50,511 bases of DNA from an uncultured Clostridia bacterium (GTDB taxonomy: Bacteria > Bacillota > Clostridia > TANB77 > CAG-508). The notes under the pieces were generated by a model, which ran no database searches, had not been told where the DNA came from, and was given only the letters and a program-made list of their open reading frames with translations. The position numbers and the translations under genes are program-made. Numbering within the stretch: position 1 is the stretch's first letter; every line of letters starts with the position of its first letter. Location of the stretch: positions 1 through 50,511 of the forward strand of contig CANPZY010000010.1 in assembly GCA_947588945.1 (NCBI GenBank). Direction: 5' to 3'. This document shows, piece by piece, positions 16,235 through 17,013 of this stretch.

Positions 16235-16335
16235 TATTTTAACTACATTAATTTTATTTTAGTGAACTACTAAATATTATAAGTATTTGTAATATATATA
16301 ATATTAATTTTTTAAATAAAATTTAAAAGAGTTGT

Positions 16336-16364
16336 AAAAAATTAGAGCTATGTTTCCATAGCTC
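16336..16364 (-). terminator. Intrinsic terminator of the structured RNA
   Basis: GAGCTATG-GAAA-CATAGCTC followed by TAATTTTTT on minus strand. Confidence 0.8.
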
Positions 16365-16472
16365 CTTTAAAATCTTGGTTATTTGGCAGGTGTGCCAAAT
16401 CCTGCATCTCTTTTGACCTATTAGGTGTGTGGATGGCACTATTGTCCACTTCAAATAACCTATTTATATTGT
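16336..16472 (-). ncRNA. Candidate autonomous structured RNA, family not recognised
   Basis: Promoter TAGACA-N17-TATAAT; closing stem GGTTATTTG/CAAATAACC (16377-16385/16452-16460); internal hairpins 16386-16405, 16416-16426, 16429-16449; complementary loops GTGCCA/TGGCAC; terminator hairpin 16345-16364 with U-tract. Confidence 0.7.
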
Positions 16473-16478
16473 ACTTTT

Positions 16479-16507
16479 ATTATACAACTTTTATTCATTT
16501 TTGTCTA
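16479..16507 (-). promoter_or_regulatory. SigA-type promoter driving the structured RNA
   Basis: Minus strand TAGACA (16507-16502), 17-nt spacer, TATAAT (16484-16479). Confidence 0.7.
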
Positions 16508-16520
16508 GTCTTTTTTCGCC

Positions 16521-16904
16521 TTATTTTTCCAAATAATCTTCCCGTCTATTTCTTATAGTTTGATTCCAAGTCCTTTTATTTAGTTTCATTAATGTTATTA
16601 TTGAATTTTTATTATGATCGTCATCTTGTCCTAATGCTAGTTTTATAACAACTCTGCCATTCTTTTCTATATCATTAATTTCTTTTAAATATATCATTGT
16701 ATCTTCGTGTCTATTGTCTTCTACTATATAATCTGGATTTTCAATTATACTTTTTATATATGGTTTTAATTGCTTATATTCCTCTTCATGGAATAATAGT
16801 ATGTGTTCATACAGTCGTTCATCTGTTAAAACAACTTCTTCAGTTATTAACTTATCTTTGTATATGCCTAATTTTTCTTTATCTAAATTTGTTATATATT
16901 GCAA
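16521..16904 (-). CDS. PBECR-like (phage Barnase-EndoU-ColicinE5/D-RelE-like) nuclease domain protein
   Basis: EHILLFHEEEYKQLKPYIKSIIENPDYIVEDNRHEDTMIYLKEI...TLMKLNKRTWNQTIRNRREDYLEK pattern. Confidence 0.6.
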   Translation of the reverse strand: MQYITNLDKEKLGIYKDKLITEEVVLTDERLYEHILLFHEEEYKQLKPYIKSIIENPDYIVEDNRHEDTMIYLKEINDIEKNGRVVIKLALGQDDDHNKNSIITLMKLNKRTWNQTIRNRREDYLEK

Positions 16905-16922
16905 TTTATTACCTTCTTCCGT

Positions 16923-16955
16923 TTTGAACTGTCATGGATTTCTTGACAGTTCAAA
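16923..16955. repeat. 12-bp perfect inverted repeat
   Basis: TTTGAACTGTCA-N9-TGACAGTTCAAA between the mini-ORF and the PBECR gene. Confidence 0.9.
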
Positions 16956-17013
16956 TTTTTGTTAATCCATCATCTGTTTGATATATTATAATATCTCCAT
17001 TTTTATTATCCAT
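16951..17013 (-). pseudogene. 20-codon remnant resembling the N-terminus of RhuM
   Basis: SD GGAGTG then MDNKNGDIIIYQTDDGLTKI*, similar to the RhuM start 'xxEIIIYQTEDGxTKIDV'; stop lies inside an inverted repeat. Confidence 0.55.

Follow-up and report, generated by a model that had tools for sequence, protein, structure and literature searches.

The window, that is, the whole stretch of 50,511 nucleotides analysed here from an uncultured Clostridia bacterium, carries on its minus strand a gene for a small nuclease of the PBECR2/PBECR3 family and, behind the 3' end of this gene, a short RNA unit followed by a GNAT gene (Table 1). The minus-strand promoter, the closed multi-hairpin RNA, the 6-bp kissing loop and the terminator that a preliminary description of the region had proposed were all found in the sequence. 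That description had looked downstream, at the GNAT gene, and had overlooked the key neighbour of the RNA, which is the PBECR nuclease gene upstream.

Table 1. Features of the nuclease gene and the adjoining RNA unit; positions are those of the window.
Feature	Position	Strand	Remarks
PBECR2/PBECR3-family nuclease gene, 127 aa, TTG start, predicted toxin	16521..16904	(-)	Pfam PF18810, PF18812
Probable ribosome-binding site GAAGAAGG	16912..16919	(-)	7 nt ahead of the TTG start; from sequence
-35 box TAGACA	16502..16507	(-)	Sigma-70 match 11/12 jointly with the -10 box
-10 box TATAAT	16479..16484	(-)	17 nt from the -35 box; stops 19 nt before the motif
Skipping-rope RNA core (RF02924), predicted RNA antitoxin	16377..16460	(-)	Rfam match 16459-16378
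GUGCCA, kissing-loop strand 1, loop of hairpin 1	16434..16439	(-)	Complementary to 16397-16392
GAGAUG stretch, mostly unpaired, 5' of hairpin 3	16405..16410	(-)	Nearly invariant (alignment A2)
UGGCAC, kissing-loop strand 2, loop of hairpin 3	16392..16397	(-)	Perfect complement of GUGCCA
Intrinsic terminator, 9-bp stem, GAAA loop and U-tract	16335..16365	(-)	Sole terminator-like site in 2 kb

The promoter of the RNA (16507-16479), with its 11/12 match, was the best of the region, and the distance of 19 nt between its -10 box and the motif is the most frequent one in the family. The closing helix GGTTATTTG/CAAATAACC and the hairpins GTGGA/TCCAC, ACCT/AGGT and GCAGG/CCTGC were present in both the MFE and the centroid structures. 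The 151-nt unit folded with -37.1 kcal/mol and surpassed every shuffled sequence (-22.7 ± 3.2; z -4.6), much of this value being supplied by the terminator, as the 84-nt core folded alone gave z -1.9. The GAGAUG stretch is a candidate site of protein contact. For the GNAT gene, a promoter of its own (TTGAAT-N17-TATTAT) had been proposed; this site is a 9/12 match and stands at chance level (20 such sites found there vs. 16.2 expected), whereas the separation of the RNA and the GNAT gene into two transcription units is supported by the terminator, which stands before the putative GNAT promoter. A role of the RNA as riboswitch or leader for the GNAT gene was ruled out, given the intervening terminator and the lack of a recurring downstream neighbour. 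The motif was also ruled out as a coding region, any one frame being open across it in at most 66 of 176 copies.

Positions 16459-16378 were assigned by cmscan to the Rfam family RF02924, skipping-rope, with 69.3 bits (gathering threshold 36.7; E = 9.6e-15) and over the full model (positions 1-80 of 80). The preliminary description had placed the RNA in no known family and had itself made its novelty depend on the absence of an Rfam match, so that the claim of novelty is refuted and an RNA family hitherto unknown is ruled out. Skipping-rope was reportedly discovered in a 2017 paper by Weinberg and colleagues; in the searchable literature, to which that discovery paper does not belong, no function was found for it. 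The Rfam description line of RF02924 gives an sRNA and names neither a PBECR partner nor a function. The window RNA and RF02924 are alike in the full-length match, the helices and the kind of pseudoknot, this last comparison being based on a figure legend of the Rfam 14 paper and not on exact pk_1 positions. Since that paper illustrates a covariation-supported pseudoknot with skipping-rope (PMC7779021), the kissing loop itself is very probably already known. The RNA and its pseudoknot are therefore not new; the PBECR partner is the new result, and it may have been published earlier.

The protein encoded upstream matched the Pfam families PF18810 (E = 1.9e-9) and PF18812 (E = 2.4e-7), and consists of the PBECR domain only, without an N-terminal MuF domain. 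PBECR2 and PBECR3 were defined in phages as predicted RNases by Iyer et al. (2017; PMC5512222), whose account of these domains describes a His and a Thr/Ser as active-site residues. Conserved H34, H39, P57 and T104 are all found in the window protein; across relatives, H34 was present in 84 of 86 sequences and T/S104 in all 86, and our own assignment, made from the sequences, takes H34 rather than H39 as the probable active-site His. An AlphaFold model (pLDDT 88.7) found its best structural matches among viral proteins, namely MuF C-terminal domains and the minor capsid protein of a phage. When the BECR fold was sought with this model among PDB structures, no significant match was obtained; the predicted RNase activity hence rests on Pfam, on Iyer et al. 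(2017) and on residue conservation, from which the protein is predicted to be a small metal-independent RNase. No model of PADLOC or NCBIfam matched the PBECR protein, and the families ToxN, CptN and TenpN were absent from its Pfam and PADLOC matches, which comprised only PBECR2/3. In the gap between secA and the PBECR gene (16923-17013, minus strand), a well-started reading frame of 20 codons, MDNKNGDIIIYQTDDGLTKI, runs up to an inverted repeat, TTTGAACTGTCA...TGACAGTTCAAA; together they look like a truncated gene plus a hairpin.

The linkage between RNA and nuclease gene was assessed mainly by comparing PF18810 matches with RF02924 RNAs in 293 genomes of the order, with a limit of 1 kb. PF18810 matches numbered 69 and occurred in 51 of these genomes; skipping-rope RNAs numbered 127, spread over 83. 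Of the 69 matches, 65 lay within 1 kb of an RNA, in every case with the RNA at the 3' side of the gene. Among the linked pairs, 64 were on the same strand, and 64 were separated by at most 160 nt from the matched domain, the other by 795 nt. At the genome level, 50 genomes had both elements, 33 the RNA only, one PBECR only and 209 neither (Fisher P = 8e-33). The four unlinked genes comprised one whose RNA had been missed by the fast filter (L219, 43.8 bits), a pseudogene and two genes cut off by the end of a contig. Across the wider phylum, linkage was seen for 12 of 15 matches; the best of the unlinked ones (genome G653) had an RNA that the search had missed (40.5 bits), and the remaining two were weak (E = 0.001 and 3.4e-5). 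The linkage of skipping-rope RNA to PBECR is as such close to certain. No other recurring neighbour of the RNA was found in 1.5-kb flanks. Two contigs each held two nearby PBECR-RNA modules with different RNA subtypes (L219:1-2400 and L134:872-2916).

Independent collections gave the same arrangement. Loci in named genomes were obtained by scanning with a PBECR alignment, and the RNA was sought with a separately built covariance model; it was present 3' of the gene and in the same orientation at 74 of 77 loci, and of the three failures two lay at contig ends and one was a toxin truncated N-terminally. In IMG/VR, the RNA had this placement at all 26 PBECR loci, with gaps of 43-73 nt in 25 and of 2.3 kb in one, across an apparent insertion; over named genomes and viral contigs the median gap from the matched segment was about 55 nt. 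No viral contig was matched when the query was the window protein alone or L161; a mixed alignment recovered the viral-contig loci. The scan alignment was built from RNA-linked genes and carries that bias, of which the PF18810 test is free. The pair was also found on plasmids of Bacillus (one thuringiensis plasmid included), Brevibacillus, Priestia, Clostridium, Fusobacterium and Treponema, and in Streptococcus suis phages. On the B. subtilis plasmid pTA1060 the RNA lies tail-to-tail with the PBECR gene; just past these two, the same plasmid has a Bacillus-plasmid RNA (RF01691; L344:3544-3599).

The structure of the RNA was examined in relatives, from which the loop pairs were extracted by a position-based parse. 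Complementarity of the two loops was 11.98 with their own partners vs. 8.78 ± 0.23 with swapped partners (z 14; 103 distinct loop pairs), and the loop letters changed together, as in CGUGGC/GCCACG, CGUCCG/CGGACG and UGUGUCA/UGAUACA. In an alignment of 35 sequences, both-sided changes occurred in 23 of 28 pairs, including five of the six pairs of the kissing helix, and covariation was 0.413 compared to 0.153 after shuffling, slid controls not exceeding 0.135. These patterns indicated a structure that is under selection. Among PBECR-paired RNAs, a promoter matching at least 9 of 12 positions preceded 97%, with the -10 box mostly 17-19 nt ahead of the motif, and a terminator followed 76 of 90. 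The view that the RNA is a separate sRNA unit, equipped with a promoter, a terminator and a kissing loop, is accordingly supported, these features being kept in relatives.

Toxin and RNA differed clearly in how often each was found alone. Among 172 RNA instances, the toxin lay directly upstream in 90 and tail-to-tail in 11, and no PBECR was found near 69, of which seven had short flanks; the reverse, an intact stand-alone toxin without RNA, was practically never seen. The toxin-free RNAs retained the hairpins and the kissing loop. In genome G006 a copy of the RNA showing identity over 82 bases is fused to the opening codons of a PBECR gene that has otherwise been deleted (L005), and at L006 a remnant of the PBECR 3' end has apparently been left. 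At L039 and L042 the motif comes immediately after the stop codon of secA, having lost its own promoter and kept the terminator; judged from this position, the RNA has turned into a secA 3'-UTR. Fewer of the toxin-free RNAs had a promoter of the above strength (56% vs. 97%), so some of them may be decaying. The RNA was also present, and PBECR2 absent, in the Enterocloster phage CB457P2 and the satellite phage Javan99. In CB457P2, a phage of about 100 kb, it occupies L347:2994-3073, and a similar match was obtained in CB473P1-3; this copy could be a phage-borne antidote, comparable to the pseudo-ToxI of phage PhiTE. In the Streptococcus satellite phage Javan99, an SpF41 sRNA (RF02435; L346:1849-2071) stands right before the RNA. 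PBECR3 domains within giant polyvalent proteins had no skipping-rope RNA nearby, which limits the linkage rule to stand-alone and MuF-fused copies. One such protein, of 2704 aa, is encoded on contig C22 of the window's own genome (L351:4384-12495) and combines PBECR3 with an ADP-ribosyltransferase domain and LPD38, the RNA being absent alongside.

This distribution bears on two explanations that give the RNA another role. If the RNA were a substrate, cofactor or guide of PBECR rather than its inhibitor, and the nuclease cut it or carried it to a target, a stable pair with the RNA downstream would be expected, as in the layout of TnpB and its reRNA, where the orphan motif RAGATH-18 is described as having proved to be the partner. 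However, a needed cofactor would not persist alone, and 69 of the 172 RNAs as well as PBECR2-free phages keep the RNA without nuclease; moreover, no segment of the RNA varies in the manner of a guide, the core being conserved and changing mainly by compensatory substitution. We therefore regard this role as very improbable. Alternatively, an independent trans-acting sRNA or 3'-UTR element could hitch-hike beside PBECR on mobile elements, in line with the Rfam entry as an sRNA of unknown function, with the occurrence of the RNA alone and with those copies that now are secA 3'-UTRs. Near-complete presence beside stand-alone PBECR across phyla, always 3', in phages, plasmids and chromosomes, together with flanks in which nothing else recurs, makes such hitch-hiking very improbable.

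A third explanation concerns the mode of action. In an antisense arrangement resembling type I systems, in which the toxin gene is likewise accompanied by a small RNA with a separate promoter, the RNA would base-pair with the PBECR mRNA and block its translation, and at the 11 tail-to-tail loci the two transcripts could indeed overlap. In most loci, however, the RNA lies downstream on the same strand, so that antisense overlap is missing, and what is conserved is a closed structure whose loops are occupied by the kissing loop. Cognate duplex energies at the toxin start were no better than non-cognate ones (Wilcoxon P = 0.76; mean rank 0.47), and we consider antisense action very improbable. 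Distances among the RNAs correlated with those among the toxins (rho 0.76), a relationship of which adjacency alone would give a part. A protein-binding RNA antitoxin is favoured because the RNA has its own promoter, because its divergence correlates with that of the toxin and because no cognate pairing was found at the toxin start.

With high probability, PBECR toxins have their RNA antitoxin in skipping-rope, a single-copy RNA with a kissing loop that would act in a way similar to antitoxins of type III. The gene at 16904-16521 would encode the small predicted metal-independent RNase, and the RNA, transcribed from its own promoter at the 3' end of the toxin gene and stopped by its own terminator, would fold into a compact closed form locked by the kissing loop, bind the nuclease and keep it inactive. 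Upon loss of the module, or when transcription is shut off, for instance by an infecting phage, the RNA would decay first and the RNase would be freed. The outcome would be addiction to the plasmid or prophage and warfare between elements, whereas with MuF-fused versions the RNA would give immunity to the producing cell. Proteins adjoining the RNA in the S. suis phages are annotated as SpbA or 'spbA protein'. The title of Lereclus and Arantes (1992) states that the spbA locus ensures segregational stability of the Bacillus thuringiensis plasmid pHT1030; such stabilisation would be expected of an addiction module, the putative link of this locus to PBECR2 being one of annotation name.

The viral loci place the pair among phage head genes. 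One viral contig (L232) carries, one after another, terminase, portal, MuF, PBECR2, RNA, scaffold and major head protein, and on another (L231) PBECR2 is fused to MuF; with only these two phages as the reference for comparison, head genes were recognised at no fewer than 16 of 30 viral loci. The PBECR of L311/L312 shares 61% identity with that of the window, whose module therefore probably derived from phages of this kind. MuF polymorphic toxins (PMC5576092) and PBECR domains (PMC5512222) involve the same toxin domain at the same site of the phage head cluster. Behind MuF toxins, Jamet et al. expect an immunity protein (PMC5576092); here, that position is occupied by the RNA. In the passages of the two papers considered here, a protein immunity gene is expected or mRNA or CRISPR RNA is treated as the target, and no RNA partner is mentioned.

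The antitoxin role would account for the patchy, multi-copy distribution of the skipping-rope family. If it is true, an RNA family for which the literature searched gave no function would acquire one, the predicted phage RNases, a widespread class, would receive the antidote they have lacked, and RNA antitoxins would gain a further class in which the toxin family is new and the RNA is a single unit with a kissing loop. A broader proposal, for and against which the chances seem to us evenly balanced, is that skipping-rope RNAs are immunity factors for PBECR toxins as an entire class, whether these are borne by phages, plasmids or chromosomes and with the MuF-fused ones that phage heads may inject among them, and that the toxin-free copies of hosts (some in secA 3'-UTRs) and of phages such as CB457P2 act as stand-alone antidotes and counter-antidotes in an RNA arms race.

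The known ToxIN, CptIN and TenpIN systems are defined by their toxin family, by a tandem-repeat RNA upstream of the toxin and by a terminator between the two. As in these type III systems, an RNase toxin gene, here a predicted one, stands beside a small, structured, pseudoknotted RNA, the two genes being adjacent. In contrast, the toxin here belongs to the PBECR family and is not ToxN-like, and instead of tandem repeats upstream there is a single RNA downstream, with its own promoter and terminator. The PBECR-skipping-rope pair thus lies outside ToxIN, CptIN and TenpIN on three counts: the family of the toxin, the order of the genes and the number of RNA copies. A conserved RNA motif beside a phage-borne toxin gene is likewise found in AbiF-RCd22 (abiF-motif RNA) of a Clostridioides difficile prophage, although its toxin belongs to the Abi_2/Cas13-related family and its RNA has another fold (PMC12373285). 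The inhibition proposed here is modelled on both precedents, with ToxI holding ToxN, and RCd22 holding AbiF, inactive.
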